Of a stretch of DNA of 64,000 bases, positions 13,163-61,674 are shown piece by piece. The stretch's first letter is position 1, and each line of letters opens with the position of its first letter. Source of the DNA: Eutreptiella sp. 'Long Island Sound 2002' (taxonomy: Eukaryota > Euglenozoa > Euglenophyceae > Eutreptiales > Eutreptiaceae); the NCBI GenBank assembly GCA_964036045.1, contig OZ038389.1, positions 36,722,912-36,786,911 on the forward strand, given 5' to 3'. The notes under the pieces are model-generated. The model made no database searches. It had not been told where the DNA came from and was given only the letters and a program-made list of their open reading frames with translations. Made by a program: the position numbers and the translations under genes.

Positions 13163-13167
13163 CCAGG
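13163..13167. repeat. B1 target-site duplication, inverted copy
   Basis: CCAGG, the reverse complement of CCTGG at 23133-23137. It sits exactly between an LTR-B 3' end and inverted gag sequence. Confidence 0.75.
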
Positions 13168-13678
13168 TGCATACCCAGGAACATCCACATAGGTTCCAGT
13201 AGCGGGTAGTGCATGGGGATATTCAGCCGCATACCATCGCGGCGCAGAGCTGGTAGCCACCGGCTCACTGGCAGTAGTTGCCTCATGGAGCGCAGTGGTA
13301 GGTGGGCCCATACCATAGGCGGGGTAGGGAGGCATGCCAGTAAAGCCTGTGCCCTCTGCCATAGGCGGGTTGGTTGTGGAAGTGGATGTTGCAGCGGCTG
13401 GGAGTGTGGTGGTTATAGGAGAGGGTGATGCGTGGAGGCCAGAAGCGCTTGGTGCGCCTTCGAAGGTAGGGTCATGCGTCAGGTCTTGCCCTTGTTCCTC
13501 TCCTTCGTCTTCTTCTTCTCCAGCATCCCTCTCGCTCTCTCTTCTCTTCCTCTTCACAGGCTGAGTGACCACGACCACCTCTTCGACAGACAGGGCCCCG
13601 AAGGCCGTCTGAAGTCCATCCAGGGAGTCCTCAGCCGCATCCACTGGCCCATGTAAGGGCTCCGCCGAAGGTACAGCG
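13163..13678 (-). pseudogene. gag: B2 gag N-terminal fragment, inverted
   Basis: Minus-strand gag sequence matching B3 gag at about 61750-62265 (VPSAEPLHGPVDAAEDSLDG ... YVDVPGYAPG). Its downstream edge stops at the very point where B2 gag resumes at 23133, so it is the missing piece of B2 gag flipped in place. At 13674-13678 it joins the B1 3' region through a 5-bp microhomology (CAGCG). The first roughly 30 codons, leader and primer site are lost. Confidence 0.8.
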
Positions 13679-17800: not shown

Positions 17801-19748
17801 TCCTTGTACTCCAGGACTAGGCCAGCGTCGATACATTCTTGTATCTGTCGCTCGATCTCGTCGGCCTGCTCTTTAGGAGCTGGATAGGGTCTCCTCGGAA
17901 TCTTATGACCCACGAACTCGGGTTTCAGCTTGAGGTCCATCTGTACCAGCTTGTCGCATGAGGCTGGAGGGGGTAGTTCTCCGAACACCTCCAGATAGAT
18001 CCTTATCAGCTTCTGTACCCGCGGGTCCAATACCTTGATCTTGTCCTCCATGTCCTCGTCGGAGTGTAAGTTGCTTGCCCCTTGAATAGACGTCAGGAGG
18101 TGGTCCTCCACCGACTCTTCGCCCGCGGTAGCATCCATCAGCCCTTGGTAGGCATATAGAAGGTCTTGCTCGACCATCTCCGGTGGACGATGGCAACATA
18201 GGCACACTCGAGGGGGTTCACATACACATTCCTCCGAGAGGTCGTCCTCCTCTGGGGTCCTCACATGGGCGCCCCACACGCTCTTCATGAGCTTGAGATC
18301 TACCTCCCTTTGCCAGGTGGTGATCTTCTGTTCGAGGTCCTCCTTCAATTGGGATAGGTCTCCCATACGTCCTTGCTTCAGTGGCCACAAGCTGCGGGTA
18401 GGCTTCGCGTAGCATAGCTTTTTCGCCACCAACTTCCTCTTGGAATCCACATACTTCCTGAGCCTGGATTGAGGGTCCAGCTCTTCATCCACGGGGTCTT
18501 CCACCCTCATGGAGAGTAGGGGTTTTAGTGGGGTGACGTACTCGGCGTTCTCCACTTCCTCCACCGCGGTCTGCACGAAGAAGGCGTCGTGCTCAGTTTC
18601 GTCGTCTGAGTGGATAGAGCTAGGTAGCTCAGATAGTCCACACTCAGAGACTCCATCAGGAACAGGTACATGACAGGGAGAGTTGGGGGCGTTGGTGTCA
18701 GTCACGACGTACTCATCTCCTCCGGGTGTAGTTTCAACAGCATCTTGAGGTCGTAGGCGATCCTTCAAGTCACCCAAGGCGAGTCCATCGCTTTCTCGTT
18801 GTATAGCCTGGACCAGAGTAGGGTCCAGGTCTTCCCAGGGGATGGTGGTAAGACTTCCGTCCACCACGCTGAGCATACTCCCCCATCCGGGCTTCCCAAT
18901 GGGCGTCTTGCGTCCCAGAGGCACGTAGATGGCCTCATCAGGTAATCGCACCGAGCTGATAGTCAGCTTGTCAAGGAGGGTTCGCCAGTACTCGTTGCCC
19001 CCATGGGCTCCCCAATCGGGGGAACACAGGACCATACGGGAACGTTCCAAGGCCACCTTGGTCAGCACCTTCCCCAGTTCACTGAATCTGGAGTTCCCGT
19101 AGGCCATTCGAAAGAGGGCCAGTAAAATTTGTAGCTGCAGTTCTTCCCCTTGCTGCAGTATAGGTCCAGTACATGCTGCTTGTCGCTGGCGAACAGCTCC
19201 ACACTTAGGTCTTCTCGAGAGTAACCCAACTCCTTCAGACCTTGGTCTAGGACTTCCCCCAATAGTTGATAGTCCTCAGTTTTGGAGGCCGCCATCATGT
19301 TCGAGGGCTCCTCCTTCGATAGTCTCAGGTAACTCGAGGTATGTTCCGACTGCTCCAGTGGCACAGACTCTCTGCCACTGCCGTGGTCCACGTACAGGAG
19401 GTAGGGCGCTTGCAGCGTCAGGGATTGTATCTGGGAGTGCTGCACGAAGAAGTCAGTACCCAGTACAAAGTCGAAGGCCTCAGTGTCCATCACATAGAAC
19501 CGATGGGCGATAGTTCGAGAGCCCATAGGTACCTCCACTTCACAGTCCCCGCAGCTGTGCACCACATGTCCATCCCCCATGCGTATAGCGGCGGTGGTCA
19601 TGGTGTTCTTCAGGCTCCCACAAGGTTAAATTTTCTTGGCCACTATAGATATTGTGGCGCCAGTATCCAATACCCCCAGGTATTCACGTCCCCCTAGTCG
19701 GATACGTACCCAAAACACCAGGTCTTGGGTGCCACCAGAGCGTCCCCG
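14821..19748 (-). pseudogene. pol: pol of B1: protease, MTase-like, RT, RNase H, integrase, chromodomain
   Basis: Follows the gag TGA in the same frame. Protease carries LDTGATISIV (near 19670), but a TAA lies shortly after it (near 19625). The methyltransferase-like segment (VELFASDKQHVLDLYC ... NSRF ... VLCSPDWG) is split by a one-base deletion near 19105. A long frame from 19107 to 15841 (1,088 codons) encodes RT with HIDD (near 17395), RNase H (VTDASNVGGGG, EQELLAGM) and the integrase zinc-binding and core start. A TAG at 15841-15843 replaces a Tyr codon, and the same frame continues from 15807 to the end at 14821 with the rest of integrase and a chromodomain (WEGFGVEEATWEPFSAF). Inactive copy. 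Confidence 0.88.
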
Positions 19749-25036: not shown

Positions 25037-28000
25037 CGGGGACGCTCTGGTGGCACCCAAGACCTGGTGTTTTGGGTACGTATCCGACTAGGGGGACGCG
25101 AATACCTGGGGGTATTGGACACTGGCGCCACCATATCTATAGTGGCCAAGAAAATTTTACCTTGTGGGAGCCTGAAGAACACCATGACCACCGCTGCTAT
25201 ACGTATGGGGGATGGACATGTGGTGCACAGCTGCGGGGACTGTGAAGTGGAGGTACCTATGGGCTCCCGGACTATCGCCCATCGGTTCTATTTGATGGAC
25301 ACTGAGGCCTTCGACTTTGTACTGGGTACTGACTTCTTCGTACAGCATTCCCAGATACAATCCCTGACGCTGCAAGCGCCCTACCTCCTCTACGTGGACC
25401 ACGGCAGTGGCAGAGAGTCTGTGCCACTGGAGCAGTCGGAACATACCTCGAGTTACCTGTGACTATCGAAGGAGGAGCCCTCGAACATGATGGCGGCCTC
25501 CAAAACTGAGGACTATCAACTATTGGGGGAAGTCCTAGACCAAGGTCTGAAGGAGTTGGGTTACTCTCGAGAAGACCTGAGTGTGGAGTTGTTCGCCAGC
25601 GACAAGCAGCATGTACTGGACCTTTACTGCAGCAAGGGGAAGAACTGCAGCTACAAATTTTACTGGTCCTCTTTCGGGATGGCCTACGGGAACCCCAGGT
25701 TCAGTGAACTGGGGAAGGTGCTGACCAAGGTGGCCTTGGAACGTTCCCGTATGGTCCTGTGTTCCCCCGATTGGGGAGCCCATGGGGGCAACGAGTACTG
25801 GCGAAACCTCCTGGACAGGCTGACTATCAGCTCTGTTCGTTTGCCTGATGAGGCCATCTACATGCCTCAAGGACGCAAGACGCCTATTGGGAAGCCCGGA
25901 TGGGGGAGTATGCTTAGCTACTACTATGCTTACCTCCATTCCCTGGGAGGATCTGGACCCGACTCTGGTCCAGGCTATACAACGACAAAGCGATGGACTC
26001 GCCTTGGGTGACTTGAAGGATCGTCTACGACCTCAAGATGCTGTTGAAACTACACCCGGAGGAGATGAGTACGTCGTGACTGACACCAACGCCCCCAACT
26101 CTCCCTGTCATGTACCTGTTCCTGATGGAGTCTCTGAGTGTGGACTATCTGAGCTACCTAGCTCTATCCACTCAGAAGACGAAACTGAGCACGACGCCTT
26201 CTTCGTGCAGACCTGTGTGGAGGAAGTGGAGAACGCCGAGTACATCGCCCCACTGAAACCCCTACTCTCCATGAGTGTGGAAGACCCCGTGGACGAGGAG
26301 CTTGACCCTAGATCCAGGCTCAGGGAGTATGTGGATTCCAAGAGGAAGTTGGTGGCGAAAAAGCTAGGCTACGCGAAGCCCCCCGCAGCTCATGGCCACT
26401 GAAGCAAGGACGTACGGGAGACCTATCCCAATTGAAGGAGGACCTCGAACAGAAGATCACCACCTGGCAAAGGGAGGTAGATCTTAAGCTCATGAAGAGC
26501 GTGTGGGGCGCCCATGTGAGGACCCGAGAGGAGGACGACCTCTCGGAGGAATGTGTATGTGAACCCCCTCGAGCGTGCCTATGTTGCCATCGTCCACCGG
26601 AGATGGTTGAACAAGACCTTCTATATGCCTACCAAGGGCTGAAGGAAACTACCACGGGCGAAGAGTCGGTGGAGGACCACCTCCCGACGTCTATTACTCA
26701 GAGGGCAAGCAACTTACACTCTGACGAGGACATGGAGGACAAGATCAAGATATTGGACCCGCGGGTACAGAAGCTTATAAGGACCTATCTGGAGGTGTTC
26801 GGAGAACTACCCCCTCCAGCCTCATGTGACAAGCTGGTACAGATGGACCTCAAGCTGAAACCCGAGTTCGTGGGTCACAAGATCCGGAGGAGACCCTATC
26901 CAGCTGCTAAAGAGCAGGCCGACGAGATTGAGCGACAGATACAAGAATGTATCGACGCTGGCCTAGTCCTGGAGTACAAGGACAGGGACTACCCCCTACA
27001 CTGCAGCCCCTGTTTCCTGTTGGCTAAACCTGGGTCTACAGCCAAACGGCTGGTAGTGGACTACGGAGAGCTGAACAAGAAGACGCTGAACCACTCAGGG
27101 TCCTTTCCCAATATGGAGTCTACCCTGGAGAAGGTAGCCTCCTGGCGCTACAAGACCAAGATGGACAAGCGAAGCGGATTCTGGCAAGTGGACCTGACGC
27201 CCAACGCACAGGAACTACTGGCCTTCATCACCCCTCAGGGGAGGGTGTTCAAGTGGAAGGTCATGCTGTTTGGCGTGGCTAACGCACCCGCTCTATTCCA
27301 AGAGCTGATGAACAAGATCTTGTCCATCCTACGAAGGAGACCTAAGGTGCAGGAGCTCATATCCCGTGGTGCCCAGATGGAGGCTCACATCGACGATGTA
27401 TGCCTCGGGACCAATACCGGGGAGGATCACCTAATCCTCTTGGGTGAGTTCTTTGCGGTCTGCCAGGAGAACCACACACGATTCAAGCTGGAGAAGTGTG
27501 AGTTCATGCAGGAGACCATGCAGTACTTGGGGTTTGACGTTGGCTATGGGTGGTGGACCCCAGCGGCCTCTAAGGCCAAACCCCTGATGGATGCCAAGGT
27601 ACGACACGAAGACCCCAAGAAAGGACTTCATGATGTACGCAGTTTCATTGGGGCGTGCAACTTCTATCGCCGCCACATCAAAAACTTCACCTACACCAGC
27701 GCCGTTCTGACGGACTTGATCAAGAAGAGTACTACTTGGCGCTGGGGCCCACAAGAGCAACAAGCGTTTGACGAGCTCAAAGACAAAGTAGCCAACGCTA
27801 AGTGCTTGGGCATGCCTAGGGCACAAGGGGAGATTATCCTGGTGACCGACGCCAGCAATGTGGGCGGTGGTGGAACGTTGTTCCAATGGCAAGCACTAGA
27901 GAAGGAGGAGTTCGACTCGGCCATTTCCCAATCGGGGACGGAAGGTCTCAACCGAGATGGAACCCTCAAGCACAGCTACCCTGACGACAAGTGGGTCCTA

Positions 28001-29962
28001 GTACCTCTGGGCCACTGGAACTGGAAGTGGAACCAGGCCAGGGGGAACTACTCCACCTATGAGCAGGAATTGCTCGCGGGTATGCTGGTGCTATCCTCAC
28101 AAGCAGGACTGTTGGGGAGTAACCCTGTGGTCTGGCTGTGCGACCAAGAACCGGTCAGCAGTTTCCAGAAGGGTCCCCCACCTGAGAAGGCCAAGCTACG
28201 GCGCTGGTGGACCTACCTCAGTCAACTACGGCTGACGGTACACCATATCCAGGGAGTGAAGAACGAGTGTGCTGACTACATCAGCCGCAACAACTTCGAC
28301 GCCCTGATTGGTGCCCGGTCTGAAGCGCTGGCTAAGGAGGCGCTCAGCCGTATGGATTTCCACTTGGACCTCAACATGACGATGATACGCCCCCTGGATG
28401 GACTCCAACAATCGGAGTACCTGAAGGAGTTCGGGGATATCTACAAGCGCCTGGAGAAACGCCTTGAACCCCTCCTGGTCAACCAAGACCAGTGGAAGCG
28501 GGACAAGAGCTACCTATGGCACGAGGACCGTATTGTGGTGCCTAGTGACCCAGTCCCAGTGCTGATGAAGTGGACCCATGAGTCCAGTGGTCATGTGGGT
28601 GCTGACCGCACCCTGAGGCTGTTCAAGCAGTGGTTCCACACTACGTGGACTGACGACCAACTGCGGAAAACCTTCCAGCCTATCGTGGACAAGTGCCCGT
28701 GCAGGTCCTGTAAACCAGGGGATATCAGGGACAGAGGTCTCTACTCGACCCTGCCCATCCCTCACTGTGCTAACAGTGTTCTATACGTGGACTACACGGA
28801 GATGCCGAAGTTCGGGGGCTATGACTTCGCCCTCCTGGTAACCTGTGGGTTGACCAGGTTTACCAGGGTGTTCCCATGTACCAAGCACATTACCGGGGAG
28901 GAGACTATCAAGATACTCCTAGAGGAGTGGTTTTGTGTCTATGGGGCGCCCAAGGAGATCAACTCCGATGAGGACGTACGAGTACGCTCAGATACTGGCT
29001 TGTACAAGAGGGTCCTGAGATCCCTCAATGTCCAGGTGTCTACGGGGATTCCCTACTCTCACACGAGCAACCCCCTATGTGAGCGACAGATCCGTGTCCT
29101 CAAGGAGAACGTCAGGATATGGTGCAAGACTGAACGCACCAGAGACTGGGTGAGACTACTCCCCGTCATATCCTTGATGATGAACTCCCAAGAGAGTTCA
29201 GCTACTGGCTACTCGCCCCATGAGCTATTCCTCGGGCGCCCGGCATGGTTCCTACATGCCCCCTATCCAGAGGACACCCATTCTTCTGTGGGTGAATGGG
29301 TCCAAGAGCAACAAGCGAAGGTGGACAAGGCCAAGGCTATGCTCCAGAGAGTGAGGGAGCGTCAGTGGAACAAGAAGAACAAGCACCGAGTACCGGCCAC
29401 CTACCAAGAGGGGGACTGGGTGCTGGTGCACCACAGTCGACTACCCGCCTGGCCACGCTCTACCAGCGATGACCCATACTTCGGGCCATACAAGATTCTA
29501 TCAGTGGATGGACACCCTATCACCGTGCGGTGTTCTCCTCGTCTAGGGGGGACCCTGGTGTGCGCTGCTCAACACCTGAAGCGCTACTATGATCCTGAAG
29601 ACCTCTGTCGGGAGGAGTGGGAGCTGAACGACGAGGAAATCGCCGCTCTGGACCTACAAGGGGCTGCCAGCCCTATGGAAGTTGAAGGTGAACTCCCCGA
29701 CATGAACGCCGAGGAGATGGCTAAGGAGGGCTTCTACCTGGTGAAGTCTGTCCTACGCCACCGCTATCGCCAGGGTTGGCGCTTCCTCACCCTCTGGGAA
29801 GGGTTTGGAGTCGAAGAGGCCACCTGGGAGCCCTTCTCTGCATTTGTTCTACCTGAGGGACGCCTAAACTCAGTTCTGGTGGACTACTTGTCCCAGAACA
29901 ACCTTGGTGAGTTGCTGAGGCTCGCTGAGACGCTTGCCTCCAAGACTAAAGCTAGGGACTGA
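25037..29962 (+). pseudogene. pol: pol of B2 (best preserved): PR, MTase-like, RT, RNase H, integrase, chromodomain
   Basis: Protease LDTGATISIV at 25117. An Arg codon is TGA at 25460-25462. The methyltransferase-like domain lies at 25580-25920 (VELFASDKQHVLDLYC, NPRF, VLCSPDWG). Frame lesions occur near 25910 and 26385. From 26432 a 1,176-codon frame is intact: RT block LVVDYGELNKK (residue about 205), HIDD (about 320), RNase H VTDASNVGGGG (about 470), YEQELLAGM (about 543) and ADYISRNN (about 614). Integrase has an HESSGH / CPCRSC zinc site (about 716-756), core Asp in YVDYTEM (about 787), Asp in NSDED (about 845) and Glu in CERQ (about 884). A chromodomain (GWRFLTLWEGFGVEEATWEP) lies near residue 1120. 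The chromodomain would be expected to guide integration to chromatin. Confidence 0.9.
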
Positions 29963-32223
29963 ACCTTACCCTTACCTGCCAAAGCGTATGTGTGAGTGTG
30001 CTATTCCTAAGGTCCTGAGAGCAAGCCGCAGAAGTGGTGTCCTAATTATACCCAAGTCTGCAGGCTTGCTGAACCTGGAGGGTTGGCTTATTGATGCCAC
30101 GGGATACGCCCCGGGTCTCCCCTCCCCTAAGCGCCCAATTTCTGTGCTGGCGCAAAACCTTTGGGGAACACCCAGCGTACTAATCCAGGTATTGTTTTCC
30201 CTACCTATCTGTCTACTACAGGGAGGGCTGGCCAAAAGCTATGAAGGCATGAAAACGCCGTTTTGCTAAGTGGCCAAAACACTGACCTAACCACTGCCAC
30301 CGCCCACCAACCCTGCTAAAATTGCAGGAAACGGGTGGGACAGTGACACACGCACTACAGGTCCCACACACCCTACAGTGGCACCATCCTGGTGGGCGAG
30401 CACTGGTGCAACTGGCTCAAGCCCCCACTCAGGACTACCACTCCTACACACACACTCTACTGGGCGTTGCGAAGGAAAAGGTCTCGTGGGTCCTAGCGAC
30501 CCTCCTGTGAAATGACAAGAGAACACAGCGCTACTAAGCAACTGTGGCCTAACAGGGGACGCCACAACGTGTTTCCCCTGCTAGGGCTTGGAGGGAAGAG
30601 GTGCTCTTGCGTGCACGGCGCAGATGTTGATGGAGTCGGACTCCCTGCTCTGCCACAGGCAGAGGGGAGTTACTTGTTTGTGTGATCTGCGCCCTTGTTT
30701 AGCAGGGCACGAAAAAAATGGTATGCTGCTGCACCAATCACCCTACCTGCCCACCTGTAAAACAAAGGCAAATGAAGGGGCGTTTGCGGCGGAGGAACCA
30801 AGCCACACTCCCCGTATTATACGGTTCTCAGTGTGACCTATAATACACTGTCCGCAAACACGCTGACGAATCAGCTACCCCTGTCAAGCAAGCAAGCGTT
30901 AAGGGACTCCTCAGGTTCTCTTAAAGAACGTACCGAGGAGCCCCTGGGTAGCCTAAACAAGGTTTACCGTGCGCACTTCGCGTGGCCTACCCTTTAATGC
31001 GTGTGTGAATGCGCGAGTATGCACCAGTGTCGTGGGCAAACCTGCCCATCTGATCCGTAATCACGAACTCCACCAGGGGGTGGCCCCACCTGGGCGTACC
31101 TACCTTACCTACCGCTGGAGAGTGAAGCAAGGTGAGAGGACAAAAGGGGCGCACGCGAAGAACGTTGCTATGCACTTGTGTGTATGTCTAATCACCCTGA
31201 TCTGACCGCTAATCATCTGCAATCTTTCTAATCAATCCCTTCTATGGCGTTCTATTGTTGTTAGCGCTGCTACAAGACTCGTTCACGGAGACACGAGACG
31301 AGCAATGTGTATGCGGCATACGAGACGAGCATACCTGTAGTTTATACCTGATTCATTGAAGTCTTTTTCTTTGATTTTCGAATTCTTGAATTTTTGATTC
31401 TTCTAATAGTGTGGGTGGAATCTGTATGTTTATTCATTAATGTGTGTCTCGTCATTTTCAAGACTACGTGAGTCATACGTTTATAATTCCATTATTTCTC
31501 CATTTTCCGGCGCTTCGCTAGGAGCCGCTCCTGCGCGCCGCCATTTTATGCGTATGAATTTCTGGATTTAAAAAATCCAGAGATGACTATAATTTCTTTA
31601 AAAATGTGCTTCTGATGCACAATTGGATTCTGCTCAGGTGTGTTGTTTCAGAAAAATTCTACGCCGTCATTTGACGGATTTTGATGTCGTCGCTTCTTTT
31701 TTGCGTGGATTCGTCCATAACTCTCCCATTCCTGCCTCTCCAGATACCCACGCGCAGCCTCGCTGAGTAGGCTGTGTTCGGGCCGAAACGCAGGTGCCTG
31801 GAGAGACTGAGCAGAACCAAGACCCCACCAAGGGGCAAATTTAATTTTCTCCCGACTCCCTTCGCCCTAAGACAGGTCACAGGTCGCCAGCAGGTTTACG
31901 AGAACCCATGCGAGTGTGTATATTGTGTCTTGCGTTGGGTTTGTGTCGCGCTGCGTCTTGGAGGGAGGGATGCACATGCACATGTTTTGGCATGCTCCCA
32001 TACTAACCCAACCAAGCCACAGGAGCCCCGGCAGCGCCCTGAGCGCTGATTCTTCTGTAGGAAATGTTACAAACAGAGCAGCAAAAGAGCGCCAGCCATA
32101 GTGAGCGCCCATTTTTCTGTGTGAGGGAAACTGTAGGTATTTTAAAGTAGATGTGGAAACCAAGGAAAGGCCAAGAAAAATTCCCTTTTTCTTAAAATGC
32201 GACAGTGGTGGCCACCACAGCAC
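29963..32223 (+). other. B2 3' noncoding region
   Basis: 2.26 kb between the pol stop and the polypurine tract. No gene recognised. The first 1.15 kb is shared with B1, and parts with C 43,400-44,330. It includes an intron-like 3' signal (TACTAAT at 30178, pyrimidine-rich tract, TACTACAG ending near 30231) and the structured module at 30510-30960. From 31,200 to 31,700 the sequence turns AT-rich. Confidence 0.75.
30510..30960 (+). ncRNA. Structured RNA module in 3' region, B2 copy
   Basis: Helices visible: pseudoknot 1, TGTGGC (30543-48) with GCCACA (30561-66), interleaved with CAGGGGA (30553-59) and TCCCCTG (30574-80); long-range stem GGCGCAGAT (30617-25) with ATCTGCGCC (30685-93); pseudoknot 2, GCCACACT (30802-09) with AGTGTGAC (30830-37), interleaved with GTATTATA (30814-21) and TATAATAC (30839-46); hairpin GGGACTCCTC (30903-12) with GAGGAGCCCC (30935-44). 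The homologous element C region keeps each helix with changed bases. Role unknown (packaging, export, translation or 3'-end function are all possible). Confidence 0.6.
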
Positions 32224-32231
32224 AAGGGGGG
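32224..32231 (+). other. Polypurine tract of B2
   Basis: AAGGGGGG immediately before the 3' LTR; the expected priming site for plus-strand DNA synthesis. Matches the tract before the C 3' LTR (48095). Confidence 0.8.
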
Positions 32232-32968
32232 AGTAAGAAAAAGTGCTTTTCCATTGCTTTGAGGCATACTCTAGTTGTATTAGAGATGCACTGAGCATCC
32301 ATGCATTTTTATCTTAGTATTGGTCCCACCAAAAGTGGTGATAACACATTTTGACCTATGGAACCAAACACCCAATCAGGATATGGAGTGGACCCCTTAA
32401 TCCCCTTTCAATGTGAGGCAAATCATCGTTTCCTGAGTTGACTGAGCACTGACATATCCAAGGCAGAGCCTATGAATTTATCTATGTTTTTCCATGAATT
32501 CTTAGCTATCCTAGTGGTATGCACCCTAGGGGGCTGGGCACCTCTTTTTGAGAGGTCCTGGGTTCAATTCCTGGTCAGCCTAGCTAAGTAGGAAGATCCC
32601 ATGTGACATGGCAGTGACCTCATCGCCACATGCCCTGCCACCTCAGCACATATGGGACCCAAAACAAAGAGTGCACATCTCCTGAGATGGCACTATGGAG
32701 AGAGAGTGACCATGGGGCAGTTTTCCAACTCTTTTCCAAAACAATTTAGCTTTCTGAGTGTCTATTTTTTTTCGCCCTTCATGCTTTGATCCTGATTCTC
32801 TTCTCCTTGCATACTATTGGCTTGGGCTATCCTGGATTGACTTGGATTTACTGTAGTTCAACAAACAAAAGCTTTTCATCTCCAAAAACAAGCAGCAGGA
32901 AACCCTACACCAACAGCAAGCAGCAGGAGAGACAAAAACACAGTGCTGAAAACACTATAAACGTTTCT
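32232..32968 (+). repeat. LTR-B, 3' LTR of B2
   Basis: 737 bp, collinear with 12365-13162 except that about 100 bp (around 12890-12965 in the 5' LTR) is replaced at 32752-32775 by a short block, ctttctgagtgtctatttt, which matches the MITE-like motif at 3146. Ends gtttCT and is followed by the AGGGC duplication. Confidence 0.88.
32501..32588 (+). other. tRNA-like sequence in LTR-B (B2 3' LTR)
   Basis: Same 88-nt tRNA-like sequence as at 12634-12721; closing stem and B-box intact. Confidence 0.6.
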
Positions 32969-32973
32969 AGGGC
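32969..32973. repeat. Target-site duplication of B2, right
   Basis: AGGGC, matching 12360-12364. Confidence 0.85.
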
Positions 32974-34288
32974 TGTCAGCCCTGGCACCCCTTGCGGGCG
33001 TATCTCCCCCCCCTTCAGGCCTAAACACAGGGGGTGGGAAGATTGGCAGACCTATTGCACAGGCGAACATTCAGCTGGAGTTGCCGGAGTTCGACCCAAA
33101 ACATCTGCCAGAATGGGCAGAAGAATTGGCTGAGTTTCTTTTGCTAACTGGTCAATCCCATGTGGATGTGGCCACCAAATGCCCACTGCTGAAACGCTCA
33201 TGCAAAAAGAAACTTTTGCAAAAACAGGTGAAACAGATTGTGAAAACCTGTTCAACATGCGCAGAGGTACTCCAAAGACTGGAGAAAACATCCCCAGTCT
33301 ATGAGACTGACCTCAGTGTGCACACACAGATAGAGGAGCTACCTATGCTCCCTGAGTTTCCTTCCGCTGCGCGAGTCTCTGAATACGTTTGCGACCTAGA
33401 GTATCTGTTTTCACGGATGAACGTGGGCTCCTATGGAGCCACTGAGCCCCACCTGTGGCTCATGAGTAAGATCCCCCAATGTACGTGGGATGACTGCCGC
33501 GCTACCTCTGAGAGGAAAAGCCGGACCCACTCGTACGACGACCTAGTGGACCTGCTGATCGAGCTAGCTCTTGAGAGGGAGAATGACTCCCACATGGAGA
33601 AATTCCTCAAGAAGCACTTGGGTCGAGGTGGTACCCCTAGCCTCGAACTTGGCGAAGGGAAAGGGCCCAAAAATCCCACTAACGCCAACCAGGGAGGTGG
33701 TAAAGGAAGGGGTAACCTACGTGCCATGAATGAGGTACAACCTGATGCAGGTACACCCCCTCTGTTCTACTGTAAACCTGCCAATGACAAGGGGGGACCT
33801 TGTCATGCCCCTGACTGCACCCACCGCAGTAGTTGTATGCTGCAGATGAAACCACAGCAGCACTCCAAGGATGGTAAAACTGTGACCCATCAGGATCATT
33901 GCAGGTGTACCATCACCTGTGGCTATTGTGGCAAACGTCGTCACTATGAGGACGAATGTCACATAAAGAAACGCGAGAGTGACAAACTCAAGCGGCAGGA
34001 GGCTGAACGCAAGAAGAACCAAACACCCACCAGAAACCTCCAGAATGGGGATAAAGGTGGTAAAGGAGGTGGCACGGGGGGCCCGGCAAAGGTGGACCCC
34101 CTAACGCCCAGAGGCGCTCATCAGCGCCCGCTGCTACACCCCCCCCTGCCGAAGGTGACCTAAAGAGGCGCCCACAGGGGGATAACGCCTCTCCTGAGGG
34201 GAATAACTCCAAGAAGAGACCACTGGCCTGGATGGCCAATTCCCTCATGGCTGCAGGGGTGGATGTCAAATTCCCTGCTGAAGAGTAG
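32974..34288 (+). pseudogene. gag: gag of element C, 3' part
   Basis: Continues the gag interrupted at 12364. Capsid-like domain (LPEFDPKHLPEWAEELAEF onward, 33080-33600) closely follows element A gag. Zinc knuckle CGYCGKRRHYEDEC at about 33920-33960. A frameshift in a run of C near 34139 separates the last 50 codons, which end VDVKFPAEE and the TAG at 34286-34288. It is less GC-rich than the homologous A and B genes, suggesting an older or different lineage. Confidence 0.85.
34286..34288 (+). other. gag/pol boundary stop codon TAG (C), pol in frame
   Basis: GAG TAG GGG GGC GGC TCC, then protease in the same frame. Element A has GAA TAG GGG GGC GGC TCC at the same place. Candidate readthrough signal. 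Confidence 0.6.
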
Positions 34289-37200
34289 GGGGGCGGCTCC
34301 GAAGAGGAGGACTTGGTTTTCTGGATCCTCGTGAAAATCGGGGATCAAGTTTTTCGAGCGGTGCTTGACACCGGTGCAACACTTTCCATAGTGTCCCGGC
34401 GCCTGATGAGGACTTTCAAGAAAGCTAAGACCGTGGCCATAAGAGTAGGGGATGGGCGTACCATCCATTTCTTGGGGGGGGTCGCTGTAACTATATGCTC
34501 GGGCGAAGAAACTGTGACCCAACACTGCAGAGTGTTGGACACCGACGCCTTTGACATCGTCATTGGTACCGAGTTCCTACGAAGAAACGCCCAGGTGAAA
34601 ATGCTGTCTCTTTAGCGCCCCTATTCTTTGCACCGCGACTTTGGCAGTGGGCTCTTCTCCGTACGTTTGGAGCTGTCAGGACGAAAAGAGTCTGGGTTGC
34701 GCTACGCATCCAAGACGAATTATCGTACTGAAAACTACCAATTGGCCCGTCACGTTCGTGAAAATGGACTGGCGGCCCTTCAGGTAAACCTGGATGAGAT
34801 CCAGGTGGAATGGTTTGGAGCCAACAACAGCACATCATGCAGTTGTACTGCACGAAACAATTGAACAACGCTTTCCGTTTCTTCTCGAAAGCAATGGGCC
34901 TAGCGTATGCTAACCCTCCCTTCTCCCTGCTCGCGAAGGTTCTAACCAAAATCACTTATGAGGGAGGAAGGGTTGTCATGTGCACCCCTGACTGGGGCTG
35001 CTCTGGTGAACACGCTTACTGGTGCCGTATGCTAGATCGAATGACCGTGGGAAGAGTACAACTCCCCGACGGTCCCATCTATGTGCCTGAGGACTCAGAC
35101 ACAGCTATGCAGGCCCCTGAGTGGGCCAGTTTCTTATCAATCGTCGATGGATCTCTCAATCCTGTACCCCTGCGTGACCTAGATCAGGTGCTACTGAAAG
35201 AGGTCATGGCCGAAAATCGTGGCCTGACTCTTTCTAACCTCAAAAATCAATCTCCTGAGCACCTATCTGCCACCCTTACAGGGTGTGAATCTCCCGATGG
35301 CTATCTGGAACCTGCAGCTGTTAAGGAGGATGCTAACGATGAACTGTCTGAGATCGCCAGCACTATACCTCCTGTTGATGCCAGCTGTATTGATCTAAAA
35401 CACAGTGCCTTCCTAGCCCAGCTGTTGCTGGAGGAGGTAGATCTAGAGTCAACCTCAGAACCCACTTCCCCTGTTGGGAAGCCGGTCCTACACATGCAGC
35501 CTATGCACACAGGTAAACCCGTGGCCCGGAGTCCTGATGCTCTAGCGCGGCCTGCTTCTAATAACATGCCACTGTCTGAGCATGACACTCAGGAACTCTG
35601 ACGGCTGTTGTACCTGAAGGCTGAAGGTATTGAGCGCCAAGAGCGGCTGCAATACCTCAGACAGACCTGGAAATCCTCCATCTGGTCCAAGCAGGACGAT
35701 GATTCCTACACGCTGCCTGACCCTGAGATGCCTCTAGTGTATTCTTTGCACTATGGGCAGCAATGTCCCCCTGAGTGGGACGATGGTTCTGTACCAGCCG
35801 AAACTGCTTATCGGCAGAAAAAGAAAGAACATGGAAAGAGCAACCTCCATGCTGAGGGGCGTTTCCTTCAGAAAGTCGAGAGTCTTAATCTTGACCCCCG
35901 ACTGAAGAAACTGCTGCTAACCTATGAGGAGGTGTTCGGCGCCTTGCCACCCCCCCCCCCCCCTCTCTTGTAAAAAACTGGTTCAGATGGACCTGAAACT
36001 GAACCCTGAATTTGAAAAGACGCGAGTGGGGCGTCGTCCCTACCCCGCTCCACAGGAACAGGTTGAAGAAATCGAGCGCCAGATCCAGGAATGTATTGAT
36101 GCTGGCCTCGTGCAGGAAGATTAGAAGGGGGACTACCCCCATCACTGCAGTCCCTGTTTCCTGGTTGCTAAACCAGGGTCCACTGCCCTACGACTGGTTG
36201 TTGACTATGGTGAGGTCAACAAGAAAACCCAGAACCACTCAGGGAGTATTCCTAACATGGAAAATACCCTGGAGCGTATTGCCAAATGCAGGTACAAGAC
36301 CAAAATGGACAAACGCAGTGGTTTCTGGCAGGTAGACCTAACCGCCGCAGCTCAAGAGCTGCTGGCTTTTATTACCCCTAAGGTTCGGCTGTTAAAATGG
36401 AAGGTCATGGCTTTTGGGGTGGCTAATGCCCCAGCGTTCTTCCAGGAGCTAATGAACAAAATTCTGTACATACTGAGGCGCAGACCTCTAGTACAGGAGT
36501 TGATTTCTCGGGGTGCAGAAATGGAGGCCCACATCGACAACGTGAGTTTGGGTACTAATACCCAAGACGACCATGTCCTTCTCCTCCGTGAATTTTTTAT
36601 TGTTTGCCAAGAAAACCATCTCCGAATCAAACTCAAAGAATGTGAGTTTATGAAAGAGGAGATGGAGTATTTGGGTTTCGACGTAGGGTATGGCTGGTGG
36701 AAACCAGCCACGTTTAAGATGCAGCCCCTACAGGACATGCAGATTCACAATGACCCTAAGAAGGGTCTACACGACGTGAGGAGTTTCCGGGGCGCCTGTA
36801 ATTTCTATCGGCATCACATCTACAATTTTACCTACTCCTCTGCCCCCCTCACTGACCTAATCAAAAAAAATACTCCCTGGAGGTGGACCGCCAGAGAGGA
36901 GGAGTGTTTCCAGGAGTTGAAGAAGAAAATTGCCTCCTCCAACTGCCAGGGAGTACCCTGCCCTAAGGGCGAGATAGTCCTGATCACTGATGCCAGTGAT
37001 GTAGGGGGGGGTGGAACGATCTACCAAAGGCAGGAGCTTAACCCAGCTGAACTAACACACTGCCATTATCGTACTAGTGGACTGAACCGTGACGGCTCCT
37101 TCAAACATGACTATCCTACCAGTGAGTGGCGGCTGGTGCCACTGGGACACTGGAATTGGAAATGGTACCAAGCGCGTTCCAATTACAGCACCTATGACCA

Positions 37201-39130
37201 GGAACTCCCGGCCGGTATGTTGGTGCCTTCGTCACAATCCCGACTCCTGGGATCTAACCCTATTGTCTGGCTCTGTGACCAGGACTGTGTGAAGTCTTTT
37301 CAGAAGGGCCCACCACCAGAGAAAGCAAAACTAAAGCAGTGGTGGACTTGCCTGAGCCAGTTCAGGCTGACAGTTCATCATATCCCCGGTATAAAAAACG
37401 AACTGTCTGACTATATATCGCGCAATAACTTCGATGCGCTTATAGGTGAGAGCTCTGAGGCGCTCGCCAAAGAGGCTTTCCAGCGTATGGATGTCTAGCT
37501 TGACCTGTCCATGCGCACTGCTGGAATCCTGGAGGGTTGGAGCCTAACCGACTATCAGTCAGAGTATAAAGAAATTCTGCAGACCCTCAACACTGGTCTC
37601 GAACCCCTTGTCATTGACGGGCAGCAGTGGTATAAAAACAACCAGTACCTCTTCTACGAGGACCGTATTGTTGTACTTGAGGCACGACTGGATGGGTGCC
37701 TACAGTGGTCCGATCTCAGCTCTGGTCATACTGGCGCCAATCGCTCAGTGGACTTCTTCTGCGAGTGTTTCTACTCTAATCTAACACTGACTGAACTGAG
37801 GTCTCGTATGCAGACCATTGTGGATGCTTGTGGCTGTCATGCCAGCAAGCAGAGCGACAGTAGGGATAGGGGACTGATTTCCAGCTTACCCATACCCTAT
37901 TGTGCTAACTCTCTTCTCTATCTGCATTTCATCCACGGCCTACCTCGCTTCGGCGGCTATGATAGTTGCCTAGTGGTCACCTGTGGCCTATCCCGCTTCA
38001 CCAGTGTGTTCCCTTGCAATAAGAAAATCACAGGTGAGGAGATTGTGAAAATGTTGGTCGAACAATGGTTCGAACCATATGGGGCACCTAAGCAAGTGCA
38101 CTCTGATGAAGATGTACGCATCCGCAGTGACACTGGGTGGTACAAATGGGTGCCAAATGCCCTCAACGTGGAGGTAACCACAGGTGTGCCCTATACCCAC
38201 ACGTCTAACCCTCTTCGTGAGAGACAGAAGCTTGTGGTGGAACAAAACCTAAGAATCCTGATGAAACAGGAGCGTACCAAAGACTGGGTACGCCTAGTGC
38301 CCTGGGCACTGCTGACCATGAACTCACACCGGAGCTCTTCTACGGGTTTCACCCCCCACGAACTGTTTCATGGAGGACGACCTGCTTGGTTCTTCAAAAC
38401 CCCCTTTCCTGAGGACTTCAAAAGCCCTGTGGGAGATTGGCTGAAACACAAGCAGTCTATGGCTAACCAGGCTGGGACTAACCTGAGACACATTCGTGAC
38501 CGTGAACTGAGCCAGCGGAACCGCCTACGGCGACCTGCCAGCTTCAAGGTTGGTGAGCTTGTTTTGGTTCACCATTCACGCCTACCCCTCTGGCCACGTA
38601 ACTGCCTACAGGACCCTTATTTTGGACCCTATCGTATCATCAGGATAGATGAATCCAGGATCCATGTCAGGTGCAGTCCACGTCTAGGTGGTGAACTGCT
38701 GTGTGCACCTAAACAGTTGAGGCAGTATCACTGCCCTGACGCTTTGTCCTCGGATGAGTGGCGCCTCAGCGACAGTGAGGTCGAGCGTATTGACCTAGAG
38801 AACGCTGCCAGCCCAGAGGAGGCAGACGAACTCGAAGAGATGACTGCCGATGAGATGGCAGTCGATGGCTACTACGTGGTTGCAGGTATTGCTCGCCACG
38901 AGTATAAACAGGGCTGGACATTCCTTACCCTGTGGGATGGCTATGGGTTATCTGAGGCGACCTGGGAACCTATGTCAGCCTTCATACAACCAGATGGGAG
39001 TATCAACCCCATCTTCCGCTCCTACCTCGCTGAGAACAACGAGGGGCAGCTACTAACCCATGCTGAGACTCTGTCCCAACGTAAAAAGAAAACCCAATTT
39101 CCCTGTGTCAGTCTACTGACTGTGTTCTAA
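34289..39130 (+). pseudogene. pol: pol of element C
   Basis: Protease LDTGATLSIV (34365); stop TAG at 34613; frameshift near 34830. The methyltransferase-like domain at 34830-35130 keeps the NPPF motif (ANPPFSLLAKVL) and VVMCTPDWG. Then TGA at 35599, a frameshift in a C-run near 35955, TAG at 36122 and TAG at 37496. RT has HIDN instead of HIDD (near 36533), which would abolish catalysis. RNase H motifs are present (ITDASDVGGGG, YDQELPAGM, LSDYISRNN). The first integrase-core Asp is His (YLHFIHGLP). The later part (NPLRERQ) and the chromodomain (WDGYGLSEATWEPMSAF, about 38930-38980) are recognisable. It ends at TAA 39128-39130. Confidence 0.88.
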
Positions 39131-41354: not shown

Positions 41355-42084
41355 CCGAAACTATCATGAGCAAACAGACTGCACACCACAATTTAGGAAA
41401 CTTTGGATTCCCAGCCCAAGCCCATAATGCGGGACAAAACCTGCCAAAATGTTGCTGTGGCATACATCACACTCTACATTGATTTTCTTCTACTATGCAT
41501 GTAAAACATTTTGAAACGCGCTACACCTTTTTTTATCTATGCCTTGCACTGTTCTTTCAATGATCCACTTAGCGTATTTGGGAGAATAATTTCCAAACCT
41601 TGAACACTGAACTGAACACTATTTGGACTACCACCCACCCACCCCATGCTACAACAGTCAGCAGTGCAAGATCACAGTGATGAGCAAGAGTCTCAACCGT
41701 TGGCGATGGCGTCGAGCAGGCCCCGTGTGTCCTCTCGTGTGCGGCAAACTTGCAAATTGTTCTCAACGTTTTCCTTGTCGAAATCCTGAAAATGCACAAG
41801 TGCGAAGCACGTGTAAGCCCTCGGCGCTACTACCCTCTGCGACATACATTCAGTTCTGCGCAAGCAGCGTCGACAGCATCAGCCGCGAAAGTCTTCAGAT
41901 CGCCAAACTGCGTCAACAGACTGTTCATAATAGTCTGAGATAGTGGTTCATTGTTTGAAAGAGAGGAAGCGGCAAACCCAAAAAGCAGTGCACTTTGGCA
42001 AAGTGAATTACCTGGACTTGATCAACCAGTTGTGTTTCTGTGTTCTCAAACTGCTCCGTCATTTGCTTCAGCGTGTCGCTGCAG

Positions 42085-42225
42085 GTTGAAGATTAGTGGG
42101 GTGCTGAGTTGTGCTGTGCTGTGCCGTGCGGTGCTGAAATTGTGCTGTGCTGTGCCGTACGGTGCTGAATGGTGCTGCGCTCTGCTGTGCGGGCGTTGTA
42201 CACACACACACACACACACAAGTAC
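42085..42225. repeat. Short tandem repeats and CA microsatellite
   Basis: gtgctgtgccgt[ga]cggtgctgaa units (about 42110-42180), followed by a (CA)n run at about 42198-42221. Confidence 0.7.
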
Positions 42226-42675
42226 CCTTTCTTTCTTGTTTCTTCTTCTTGCGGCCTTGTCTGAGATAACAGAGAGCATGTTCATAACAGAAACTATAAA
42301 CAGAAAATGTGAAAAGAAGAGGACAAAAACGCAATCAGAAACAATTTTTGGATTAACTCAATGAAATGCTTGCATAAATAAACGTTCTTGCTGTCGGGAC
42401 GAGTTCTTGCTGTCGGGACCTGTCGGGGTCATTGCTGATCGGGAAGGTTTGCAGTTGACACTTATCTTTATCATTTAGTTCTCAGTTTCAGGCAAAATCT
42501 ACTTGCGGAATGAATCGATAAAAGATGAAAATTCACCAAACGCTAAAAGTTTATCCATCTAACAATGAAATGACATCTTCATAAGAATCCAAATAAATGT
42601 AAAACATTGGTTCTCATTTTCTTTACATATATCCACCTGTATAAGAATCCATGTACTGATTTGTCCCTTCCACAG

Positions 42676-43141
42676 GCCTGTCGCTCTCCTGTCGCACCCC
42701 TGTCGCCTTCTTTTCGCCTTCCTGTCGCCTTCCTGTCGCAAAAAAACACCCTGCCGCTCATCTGTCGCTCTCCTGTCGCTCTCCTGTCGCTCTCCTGTCG
42801 CTTTCTCCTGTCGCTTCCCTGTCGCTTCCCTGTCGCCGCTAGCCCTATTGCCCTCCTGTCGTCTTCCTGTTGCTTTCCTGTCGCTTATCCTGTCGCTATG
42901 TGTTGTTTCCTGTCGCTTCCCTGTCGTCTCCCTGTCGCCACCCTGTCGCCGCCCTGTCGCCCTCCTGTCGCCCTCCTGTCGCACCTCCCCTGTCGCCTTC
43001 CTGTCGCCTGCCTGTCGCTTCCTGTTGCTTCCCTGCCGCTTTCCTGCCGCTGGCCTGTCGTATTCCTGTCGCCACCCTGTCGTCTTCCTGTCGCCACCCT
43101 GTCGCCTTCCTGTCGCTCCCTGCCGCATTTCACTGTCGCCT
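42676..43141. repeat. 11-bp minisatellite, second block
   Basis: Same unit as the block at 39523-40137 (ctgtcgc + 4 variable pyrimidine-rich bases), more degenerate, with occasional deletions. Confidence 0.9.
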
Positions 43142-45263
43142 GCCTCGCGTGCCCCGAGTCTAATGACAAGCAAGGTGTTATGAGGCAAGGTGTGTCTTCC
43201 CTCCTTGGGGACAAGCGAGCCCACAGTTAGGACCCCTGACTGGTCCAGATCCATGGGGTTCTACCCTTCCTTACAGGGTTTACCATACCCCTAAGTGTGC
43301 TACATATGTCCGTGTGTGTCTCACTTCTCTCCCCGGCGTGGCTCCCGGAGACCGGGCTTCGCTGACGTCGGACCAAAGGTCCTAATCAGGTACTATTATT
43401 ACTTCTATGCCGCCCAAATTCTGTGCTGGCGCCTATCCTTGGGGGAAGACGGCAAAAGCCCTACCTACTAGAGGGGAGGGGTGGCCAAGTGTGCTAAGGG
43501 CATACAAAACGCCCATTTTTGCTAAAGGCCAAAAGCTAACGCACTCCCCTGCCCACGAGGAAAAGCACGCGGGACAGGAGACTCCACTACACTACACTCA
43601 CTAACGCCAGCACCGGCCTTCGAAGGCAGGGTGAGCACTCATCACTTCCACTCAACTCCTGCCAGGCCTGCTGACCCTAACACCTACACACGCTACTTGG
43701 AGATGCTGTCAAAGTTGTCACGGGTCCTACTGACCCTCCTGTGAGAAAGCAAGAGAACACAGCGCTACTAAGCAGCTGTGGCCTAAGAGGGACGCCACTA
43801 CGCGTTTCCCTGTCAGGGCTTGGAGGGAAGCAGTGCTCAGTATGCGTGCACAGCGTGGATGTCGGTGAAGTCGGACTGCACTCGCAGTTATTTGTTTGTG
43901 TGATTTGCGCAGCATATTTTAGCGCTGCTCAAAGAGACTGCACCAATCGCCCTTACCTTTCCAACTGTAAAGCAAAAGCTGATGGCCTGAGTTTGCAGCT
44001 GAGGAACCAAGACTACGTCCACGTATTGTACGCTTCTCAGGTAGCCCTATAATACGCTGTCCTCAAACCCAGGTGCAAGCAAGCAAGCTTAAGGAACTCC
44101 ACCCATTCTCTTATAGAACGTGGGGTGGAGTCCCTGGGTAGCCTAAACAAGAGTTGTACCGTGCGCATTTCGCGTGGCCTACCCTTTAACGCGTCATATG
44201 CATGCACAAGTATGCACCGGATTTTCAATTCCTCACTCTTTCTCCTAAATTAACCCATCATAACCAATCACAGCGTGCCTCGACCAGGAGGTGCGCTCCT
44301 CCTGGGCTTACCTACCTTACTCACCACGCATCATGTGAATGTCGAGGAATACACGAGTGCAAAACAACCCTACGCGCTTCAACAAACCTACGCCGAACTA
44401 TAAACCACCCTAGGCGATTAATGCACTGTGTGTCATGCATGCTTCCCTTGTCTTGTTTCCTGCAGAAAGGGGAGAGAGGGTGGCACACTGCACAGCGCAA
44501 AAAAAGCCTAAGCGTTTTAAGCAACCCTATTTTAGCGCTACGGCAACACAAACACGACCAAGCACTTTCTTTTCCTACCTGTGAAGAGAGAACAAGGGTG
44601 AACTCGGGCACAGCGAAAGCGACACAGCGTGTGAATGCCTCAATTAGGCACATGCACCGCGAGCACAGCGCATATAATAACCCCACGTGCGCGCTGCGCG
44701 CTCCATTCGCATCGCATACCTTTCATCTTTGTTTTTACCTGTGCAGAGCAAAGGAGAGGAGCACCCGAACCCCCAACAAACACAGCGGTGACTGCCCTAA
44801 CATTTTAACGAAGCAACCAACACGAACGCAATGCATGCGTGTGAAATGACACTGACATACCTGAGAGGTTGGTTGTCCATCTGCTCTGTGGTGTGGGTTG
44901 ATTTTCGATACTTTTCCCTAAAGTTTAGAAAAATTTTGATGCAACTGTGCAAAATTTCCTTTAAAACTTTAAAAACTATGGCTCATACCTTCTTTTTTGA
45001 GAGCCGTTTACGCTTGCGCAACCCTTTTTCTGGAGTCTGCTTCTGTTGCACTTGTCTGCAACTTTATGTTTTAGTGTAAAAATGACGATTACTCGCGTTG
45101 TTTCGTCAATTTTTGGCGATTTGACTTCTTAAATCGCTACACCTTCCGCTAAACCACAGGATTCACTCCCTGTTTGTTACAGTTTATATTTTTTTCAGCT
45201 CCTGGAGATTTGTGTCCTCCATTGGCGGTATTGGCCCTTGGTCAGGACGTTTACTGAATTGCT
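43142..45263 (+). other. C 3' noncoding region, conserved part
   Basis: From about 43,410 the sequence is homologous to B2 30,135-31,000 in the same order (aattctgtgctggcgc, the aagagaacacagcgctactaagca block, then gcctaaacaa). From 44,300 to 44,850 there are degenerate repeats around tacctgtg[ac]agag. From 44,880 it is AT-richer. No gene recognised. Confidence 0.65.
43741..44160 (+). ncRNA. Structured RNA module in 3' region, C copy
   Basis: Keeps the B2 helices with altered sequence. Pseudoknot 1: GTGGC (43778-82) with GCCAC (43794-98), interleaved with AGGGA (43788-92) and TCCCT (43807-11); one G and one C are lost together relative to B. Stem GCGTGGAT (43853-60) with ATTTGCGC (43903-10) through three G-U pairs. 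Pseudoknot 2: GACTAC (44011-16) with GTAGCC (44041-46), and GTATTGTA (44023-30) with TATAATAC (44048-55). Hairpin GGAACTCCACCC (44093-104) with GGGGTGGAGTCCC (44122-34), where B has CTCCTC/GAGGAG. Function unknown. Confidence 0.6.
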
Positions 45264-45357
45264 GTTTATGCAGCAATGGCCGTCCGCATTAGAGCGTTCG
45301 ACTGTACCCTAGTGGGGAAGCATGTGTGCTCTAGGGAGGGAGTCCTGGTTTGAGGTT
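45264..45357 (+). other. Decayed tRNA-like fragment
   Basis: Contains ttagagcgttcgactg (tRNA D-arm/anticodon-stem-like), then cctagtggggaagcat...ctagggagggagtcctgg, which resembles the LTR-B tRNA-like sequence. The T-arm is disrupted (ggtttgaggtttgaggtttga). Sits at the left edge of the GC-rich array. Confidence 0.4.
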
Positions 45358-46139
45358 TGAGGTTTGATTTTCCGGGTACTAGACGCCTTTCGGCCCCGGG
45401 GGGCCACCGGGTAGGGCCAGGTGATATCCTCCCCAGCGGGTTCTAGTGGGGGGCCCTCCAAGACGCACCTCCTGCCTGGTGGCGGAGTCCCCCGGGTTCA
45501 CAGGGCTCGGAGCCCCGTCCCTCCCCGGCTTCCCCGTTTCGCCACTCCCCGGTCAGTGCATCAATTCGCAGCCGTGGCTGCGGGCGCTTACCCACCGTGT
45601 CGCCCCCCTAATGCGTGGTTGCCCGGGGCGCCGGCGCCGCCGGGCCCGTGCTACTGGCTTGTCGCCAGTGGGACCCCCTTGGGCTGGCGCGGAGGCTGCC
45701 TAGCCTAGGGGTTGGGGCGTGGCGCAGTGCGCCACTACTGCCTTGGCGGGTGCAGTGCCCCGTCCGTGTGTGCGCGGCGCTCGCGGCCGGTTCGGGGGGC
45801 TCGGGCCGGTACCTGGTGTTGTGTCTCTCTCGTTTCCCCCTTCCCGCCCCGCGTGTCCCGCGCTGCGTGTGGCGGGCCGTCCCGTCCGGGTTTCCCTTGT
45901 CCTCGCTCGCTGGTACGCCATTCCACGCGGTCTGTGCGTTCCGCGAGCTCGGTCCGGTTGCCCTTCTGGTAGTCCCCGCGTACCCTTTGCGTGTGTGTGC
46001 GCTCGCGCTCCCGCAGCGTCCGCCCCCCCCCCCCTGGGTGGTGTGGCGTGCGCACCTCGCGCGGTCCCGGCACTGGGCGCTGGTAAGGCCGTTCCACGTG
46101 GTCCGTGCCCCTCCGCGTGTCCTGTCCAGGTCCCTTGCT
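45358..46139. other. GC-rich, non-tandem lead-in
   Basis: Very GC-rich, with long open frames on both strands but no recognisable protein. Leads into the dimeric array. Confidence 0.4.
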
Positions 46140-48817: not shown

Positions 48818-48914
48818 TGTAAGTGAAAATTGAGAATGGTATGGGTAAATAATGATTGCAAGTTAGAAGGATAAAGGCATTGAGTTAAAACAGTGAAAAA
48901 GATGTGAAAAAGAA

Positions 48915-49592: not shown

Positions 49593-49780
49593 CGAAGGGT
49601 CAGCTTAAGGATGACGGTGAATAATCCAAACACTCAAACCTCAGAAAAACAAACGCAAGAAACGACAGACACATGCACTCACACACAGGGCACGAGGATA
49701 TATAGCAGGAGAAAAAAAGAGCAATTATGCAGGCAGCTGCGGCGCTGCCAAAAGAAAGCGGCTAATGCCAAACAAAACAA
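49593..49780. other. Spacer between repeat ORF and direct repeat
   Basis: A-rich; contains a short open frame (49611-49811) with no recognisable similarity that runs into the direct repeat. Confidence 0.4.
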
Positions 49781-61574: not shown

Positions 61575-61587
61575 GGTAGCAAGAGGC
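61575..61587 (+). other. Primer binding site of B3
   Basis: GGTAGCAAGAGGC directly after the LTR, same as B1. Confidence 0.65.
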
Positions 61588-61674
61588 AGTCTGTCTCTGC
61601 GCACCGGCAGCAACCCCGCGCCGTACATCCAGTGCGCCGAGTACAGGCATATATAAGCAGAAGGGTGACTGAAG

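Follow-up and report, generated by a model that had tools for sequence, protein, structure and literature searches.

The 3′ noncoding regions of Ty3-type long terminal repeat (LTR) retrotransposons in the euglenid Eutreptiella sp. 'Long Island Sound 2002' carry a conserved block of about 500 nt in which the bases change but their pairing is preserved, and whose fold is probably used for something. We analyzed a stretch of 64,000 nt (GenBank assembly GCA_964036045.1, contig OZ038389.1, positions 36,722,912 to 36,786,911 of the forward strand), referred to as the window, to which all coordinates refer. It contains three such elements, B1, B2, and C, each with Pfam matches to RVT_1 and RNase H in pol.

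A conserved block in the 3′ noncoding region

In B2, the conserved structured noncoding block spans positions 30450 to 31025 of the plus strand, starting 487 nt 3′ of the pol stop codon and lying about 1.2 kb ahead of the 3′ LTR. Alignment placed the same block at 13766 to 14306 on the minus strand in B1 and, by comparison with B2, at 43686 to 44218 on the plus strand in C. A preliminary description of the window had put a structured RNA at these three places; they are indeed homologous, and the block extends further than first proposed.

When the 2256 nt 3′ of pol in B2 were aligned with the 6470 nt 3′ of pol in C, a single long match emerged, with 73% identity over 587 columns. Outside the block, the two 3′ regions align only at two short patches, 30132 to 30168 and 31068 to 31108, the latter on the plus strand and 86% identical to positions 44279 to 44320 in C. 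Within the block, identity between B2 and C ranges from 0.48 to 0.92 in 50-base windows and is at least 0.82 in 4 of 14 windows, the block as a whole alternating between loops that hardly vary and stems that are rewritten. The pol proteins of B2 and C are 72% and 52% identical over their two parts, and the fourfold degenerate sites of the genes are 35% identical (42/119 and 45/130). The likeness of the block despite such worn fourfold sites leads us to conclude from these comparisons that it is under purifying selection.

A coding origin of the block was rejected: the insertions and deletions that separate B from C have lengths not divisible by three, and the sole plus-strand ATG frame of at least 60 residues within the B2 block comprises 70 residues (30624 to 30836). 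A self-cleaving ribozyme was weighed by eye and set aside, Rfam giving no match. Searches of the whole window and of the family D copy introduced below with the Rfam covariance models returned 0 matches at the gathering score. At a relaxed threshold, applied to positions 30000 to 33000 and 43500 to 45600, the best match inside the B2 block had an E value of 3.5.

A third family, D, was reached via the pol protein P0053 (55% identity to B pol), with 47 places scored among 60353 candidates. It is known from a single copy, L085, of which one 3′ region was read. In L085, a C-like pol end (identified by eye) leads into 132 nt matching C at 96%; next come a stretch resembling B (87.6% over 1066 columns, B2 positions 29963 to 31000) and an LTR stretch resembling C (81% over 866 columns). 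Its block starts about 600 nt past pol, and that of C starts 524 nt past the point matching the pol stop of D, spacings similar to the 487 nt of B2. On sequence grounds, D is a mosaic, and because it joins a B-like block to a C-like pol end and LTR, we conclude that the block is a cassette exchanged between families.

Stems and their covariation

The fold was assessed on an alignment of 62 distinct copies (31 B and 31 C; alignment A2), which excludes D. Removed from it were L011, L044, and L049 (incomplete), L069 and L075 (partial), L081 (a duplicate of L046), and L001 to L008 and L029 (which duplicated the window or refetched copies). For B, the best 40 of 3208 first-look candidates were scored and 20 fetched; for C, the best 40 of 5145 were scored and 30 cut out; picking by pattern gave 16 matches, all cut out. 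The 40 best-matching B copies are 98 to 100% alike, and the pattern-picked ones 90 to 94%. The B and C copies were for the most part the top-scoring matches to their queries, which leaves divergent families under-sampled, and all three families come from one genome. An earlier set of 67 rows (33 B, 34 C) was used for a first scan of all column pairs and for some counts. Covariation was tested with our own imitation of R-scape, not R-scape itself, using a tree-preserving null. The restricted, or two-set, test covered 101 listed pairs, some of which had already shown covariation in an overlapping set; the scan of all 130305 column pairs is underpowered and dominated by the split between B and C. 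The stem forms of D, the S2 and Hp versions, and the C form of Pa were read by eye from the alignment, and the S2 and Hp strings as typed were checked to pair.

The 69 nested pairs of the fold form in 95.6% of cells in the 62 copies, as opposed to 31 to 51% when the partner is slid by 1 to 3 columns. The 40 pairs of the preliminary description, which had claimed that the same helices are kept, form in 97.5% of cells, versus 31 to 52% after sliding. Cells changed on both sides numbered 168, compared with a shuffle mean of 76.5, and 0 of 500 shuffles reached that number. Because much of the 168 stems from the single B/C split, the tests within B weigh more. Among the 31 B copies, pair 30866/30871 is A-U in 20, G-C in 5, C-G in 4, G-U in 1, and A-C in 1 (two-set E = 0.0008), and pair 30777/30881 is G-C in 22, A-U in 7, G-U in 1, and C-U in 1 (E = 0.005). 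These two pairs, significant inside B alone, belong to helices that the preliminary description had not named and that were present in an earlier fold of B2. Two more pairs vary in a similar manner: 30813/30823 (C-G in 18, G-C in 9, unpaired in 4; E = 0.041) and 30778/30880 (G-C in 24, A-U in 3, A-C in 2, G-U in 1, A-G in 1; E = 0.055). Covariation within B argues for selection that is strong enough to have produced compensatory changes within a single family. By folding energy, the whole block of B2 has a z score of −4.17 relative to shuffled sequences. The z scores of the 5′ arm are −1.74, −2.54, and −1.81 in B2, D, and C, those of the 3′ arm −3.38, −5.38, and −2.03, and those of the S arm −3.23 in B2 and −1.75 in D.

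All stems lie on the plus strand of B2. The most 5′ hairpin, H1 (CACAG/CTGTG with inner GCT/AGC, 30524 to 30546), is paired in 98.6% of cells with no double change; it is conserved, not proven by covariation. Helix PK1a (CAGGGGA/TCCCCTG, 30553 to 30580) has lost one G and one C jointly in 31/31 C copies, as had been noticed in the single C element of the window. Stem S pairs GCGCAGAT (30618 to 30625) with ATCTGCGC (30685 to 30692); in the majority of C copies, two of its pairs appear as U-G and G-U, and none is changed on both sides. The claim that G-U pairs preserve this stem throughout was right as to the kind of change, G-U substitutions only, and too strong as to its completeness, with 16/496 cells unpaired. 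These G-U pairs in C suggest that the block acts as RNA rather than DNA. Inside S, a stem found by eye, S2, joins positions 30640 to 30644 with 30666 to 30670 and reads ACTCC/GGAGT in B, ACTGC/GCAGT in C, and ACTGT/ACAGT in D. Hairpin Hp (GCCCT/AGGGC, 30691 to 30708), with a U-rich loop and its outer two pairs common to S, becomes GCAGC/GCTGC in C and GCCCC/GGGGC in D.

In the 3′ arm, helix Pa (30776 to 30780 with 30878 to 30882) holds the covarying pairs 30777/30881 and 30778/30880 and occurs as GGGG/CCCC, AGGG/CCCU, and GAGG/CCUC in B and as CCTG/CAGG in C. Helix Pb (GTTTGCGG/CCGCAAAC, 30782 to 30859) has an inner pair, 30789/30852, that becomes A-U in D. Stem b (CACACT/AGTGTG, 30804 to 30835) is paired in 99.7% of cells. 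Its conversion to CTAC/GTAG in C, reported for the window, is a true compensation, three pairs differing on both sides in 31/31 C copies, and one B copy, L025, has a private compensation (CACTCT/AGAGTG). Next to this stem, 30803/30836 is a covarying mismatch, C-A in 27/31 and G-C in 4/31 B copies, C-G in D (by eye), and A-C in 34 of the 67 rows of the earlier set. Hairpin hp (CGTA-TTA-TACG, 30813 to 30823) is closed by C-G or G-C, and hairpin hp2 (GCTGA/TCAGC, 30862 to 30875), which holds the covarying pair 30866/30871, is found in B and D only. The terminal stem T (CTCCTC/GAGGAG around GTTCT/AGAAC, 30907 to 30940) likewise carries the compensation ascribed to it, with 30911/30936 changing from U-A to A-U in 31/31 C copies. 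A long-range helix suggested by RNAalifold (CUUGUUUAG/CUAAACAAG) was rejected, its pairs being lost in C and D without compensation; another one seen by eye (GGGTAG/CTACCC) is nearly invariant, and we make no claim for it.

The two pseudoknots of the preliminary description were not upheld. In the 62 copies, their crossing pairs show a double change in 0/5 cases for PK1b (GTGGC/GCCAC, 30544 to 30565) and 0/8 for PKc (GTATTATA/TATAATAC, 30814 to 30846). PK1b has no paired variant and has three bases, 30544 to 30546, in common with hairpin H1. PKc excludes hairpin hp, the closing pair of which covaries in B; of its cells, 10/496 are kept by G-U and 13/496 are broken, one of these 23 being in B. 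Transient or switching pseudoknot pairings are possible, with plain hairpins being favored.

Several observations weigh against the fold. The numbers of double-change pairs (10) and of further pair types (33) were reached by 137/500 and 211/500 shuffles, respectively. The scan of all column pairs gave no clearly significant base pair: its lowest E value, 0.53 in B, did not belong to a base pair, and pairs 30866/30871, 30777/30881, 30813/30823, and 30778/30880 had E values of 0.99, 6.6, 52, and 71. The covariation expected across many copies was thus present for two pairs of the 101-pair set, and none fell clearly below E = 1 among all pairs. C alone had no significant pair even among those listed (best E = 0.33). 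The expected stability relative to shuffled sequences was likewise seen in B2 and not in C, for which the whole block has a z score of −1.15 (13/100 shuffles as low) and the S arm one of +0.43. Stem b is missing from the minimum-energy fold of B2 and present in those of B1 and D. Finally, Pb pair 30787/30854 is broken in 31/31 C copies, hp2 is missing in C, and in D one pair of S is broken. The central proposal of the preliminary description, that the 3′ noncoding region contains an RNA with a function and with covarying pairs, is nevertheless supported, and gains a third family and covariation within B.

Elements, LTRs, and surroundings

The B2 pol frame (26432 to 29962, plus strand) encodes reverse transcriptase, RNase H, and integrase, with Pfam matches to RVT_1 (1.3e-24), RT_RNaseH_2 (7.4e-14), and rve (9.8e-06). 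The rve match, 26.2 bits, is under its cut-off of 32.6, and rve is carried by the homologue P0001, which is 98% identical to B1 pol. B1 pol (15841 to 19107, minus strand) matches RVT_1 at 2e-27. C pol (36257 to 39130, plus strand) is split into two frames, 36257 to 37498 with an RVT_1 match (7.8e-20) and 37511 to 39130, which has no Pfam match and is 52% identical to B2 pol. The 3′ noncoding region of B2 runs from the pol stop to about 32230 (about 2.2 kb) and is followed by the 3′ LTR (32232 to 32968, plus strand, approximate ends), with a polypurine tract immediately 5′ of it. The LTR end was set by matches ending at 32965 to 32971 in 17/20 fetched B copies, two of them as displaced pieces. 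The LTR is common to the B copies, with TGGTAGCAAGAGG after a 5′ LTR (61574) and GGGGGGAG ahead of the 3′ LTR (both by eye). The features of Ty3-type elements are present, namely, a single pol with reverse transcriptase, RNase H, and integrase, LTRs, a primer-binding site, and a polypurine tract. B is abundant and has young copies, given that P0001 represents 6186 member sequences and that the B2 block is so alike across its 40 scored copies.

B1 and B2 lie head to head (12354 to 32968), the 5′ LTR of B1 directly adjoining the body of B2. Beyond the 3′ region of B1 are a 5′-leader sequence (13163 to 13684) and then an LTR in the opposite orientation (12365 to 13162). This layout suggests an inversion, recombination between copies, or an assembly fault. 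In C, about 4 kb including 11-nt minisatellite arrays separate the pol end (39130) from position 43162, and D has about 0.2 kb there. Among the matches of >150 bases listed for 29 C loci (query 42000 to 46500), none extends below 43162. Tandem arrays occupy positions 46202 to 47825, 48896 to 49690, and 7750 to 9183, with units of about 419, 165, and 378 bp, and TTAGGG arrays were found in 5/10 contig-end stretches examined.

Positions 32750 to 32774 of the B2 3′ LTR match 25/26 nt of the Euglena gracilis spliced leader, as given in PMC6242988. The leader is joined exactly to CCCTTCATG, where the other 23/24 junctions (window and loci) read CTGCAG or CTGAAG. We read this arrangement as the product of reverse transcription that returned a trans-spliced genomic RNA into an LTR. 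At the 5′ end of dinoflagellate retrogenes, relics of the leader have been reported (PMC12014239); no description of such a relic within an LTR was found in the titles and abstract beginnings of the matches listed. The LTR also contains a tRNA-like sequence (32501 to 32588, by eye) with a B box GGTTCAATTCC at 32561 and arms CTTAGCTA/TAGCTAAG; the same B box occurs at 12694 and 22793. Rfam gave a weak mascRNA match at 32531 to 32581 (E = 0.27; 22.1 bits versus a gathering score of 42.5), and ARAGORN, run with the bacterial code, reported no tRNA in the window.

Candidate roles of the fold

The block would represent a cis-acting structured module of the full-length RNA of these elements, located in its 3′ untranslated region (UTR), and we are confident that it works as a folded RNA and in cis. 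It would be built of ordered, nested domains, with 5′ hairpins, an arm of S and S2, an arm of Pa, Pb, b, hp, and hp2, and the terminal hairpin T, linked by nearly invariant single-stranded stretches. The conserved loops, presented on this scaffold, may be the binding site of a factor controlling what becomes of the unspliced genomic RNA. The position of the block, its G-U pairs, covariation within B, and exchange between families argue for a shared factor reading the genomic RNA. A host factor could act in the nuclear export of this RNA or in its stability in the cytoplasm, much as the constitutive transport element (CTE) and the RNA transport element (RTE) of retroviruses do from the same place. 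Export elements of the CTE type lie in the interval that separates the last gene from the 3′ LTR, and the block occupies that position. We put forward export or cytoplasmic fate through a host factor tentatively, at somewhat less than even chances; against it counts that the evidence for export consists of position and exchangeability.

Recognition of the folded block by Gag, selecting genomic RNA for packaging or assembly into particles, comes second, and we regard it as rather unlikely. According to PMC11381356 and PMC4974528, UTRs or POL sequences of yeast Ty3 are needed for localization of the RNA to retrosomes and for packaging, the cis-acting packaging sequences lacking precise definition. 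Covariation inside B is what would be expected of a step in the replication cycle. However, the packaging sequences of Ty1, Ty3, and HIV-1 are described at the 5′ end, and the B-like block of D, next to a C-like pol end and LTR, would speak against strict pairing with the proteins of one family. Because the cassette adjoins different pol genes and LTRs, host-factor-mediated export or fate is slightly favored over element-specific recognition by Gag. Control of cleavage and polyadenylation, translation, or mRNA stability would fit the location in the 3′ UTR; the tRNA-like LTR sequence about 1.5 kb downstream, a weak match, could be a processing site, and C has a 215-residue ATG frame starting at 44202, at the end of the block. 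Such control is improbable, as the block is about 1.2 kb ahead of the LTR and the C frame is without counterpart in B2, which has no plus-strand ATG frame of at least 60 residues between block and LTR.

The remaining alternatives seem to us remote. A second site for the primer tRNA or for end-to-end cyclization, like the bipartite primer-binding site of Ty3, has a precedent in the two such segments of the Ty3 3′ UTR, but the longest perfect complement between the block and positions 61391 to 62600, the start of a third B copy, is 9 nt, compared with 8 to 12 nt in 30 mononucleotide shuffles. The large, multidomain, and modular block might have been captured from a cellular noncoding RNA gene, as a passenger or acting in trans; the failure of Rfam to match it at the gathering score, or below E = 3.5 inside the block at the relaxed one, speaks against this. 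Equally small are the chances that the similarity merely reflects recent transfer between families. D does show the cassette moving in this way, but recent transfer would give even similarity with no paired rewriting of stems, unlike the invariant loops and rewritten stems of the block, and the flanks of B2 and C are unalignable except for two short patches.

The export reading has a bolder version that we consider doubtful, namely, that the block is a new class of RNA, a family-hopping cassette of about 500 nt that serves as the host-read passport of spliced-leader-capped genomic RNA and, given thousands of candidate copies (the 3208 and 5145 first-look candidates, of which 40 each were scored), is possibly among the most abundant structured RNAs of this genome. 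To our knowledge, cis-acting RNA of LTR retrotransposons has been described in a few elements of yeast and animals and usually lies at the 5′ end. In the open-licence literature, judged by titles and abstract beginnings among the matches listed, no such element is described, and no RNA study of euglenid retroelements was found among those matches. The block would represent a large 3′ RNA under selection in euglenids, with defined stems and loops for probing, and offers a way into the question of how a trans-spliced retroelement transcript is divided among translation, export, and packaging.

Like yeast Ty3, these are Ty3-type elements, and the 3′ UTR of Ty3 takes part in replication (PMC11381356 and PMC4974528). 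The Ty3 3′ UTR, however, has only 214 nt, and the potential pseudoknots of Ty3 fall within GAG and POL, whereas here a conserved multistem block is set in about 2.2 kb of 3′ sequence. The 5′ pseudoknot of Ty1 is another RNA structure of a retrotransposon, and its disruption is reported to interfere with retrotransposition. It differs in its 5′ location, in that a packaging role reportedly could not be shown for it, and in being a pseudoknot, none being supported here.

The closest parallels are the RNA export elements CTE, RTE, and MusD transport element (MTE) of retroviruses and of intracisternal A-particle (IAP)/MusD elements. The block, a candidate export element, is much longer, at about 500 nt versus roughly 150 to 230 nt, and differs in sequence, layout, and host supergroup. 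Like those elements, it is a folded cis RNA placed downstream of the last gene and ahead of the 3′ LTR.

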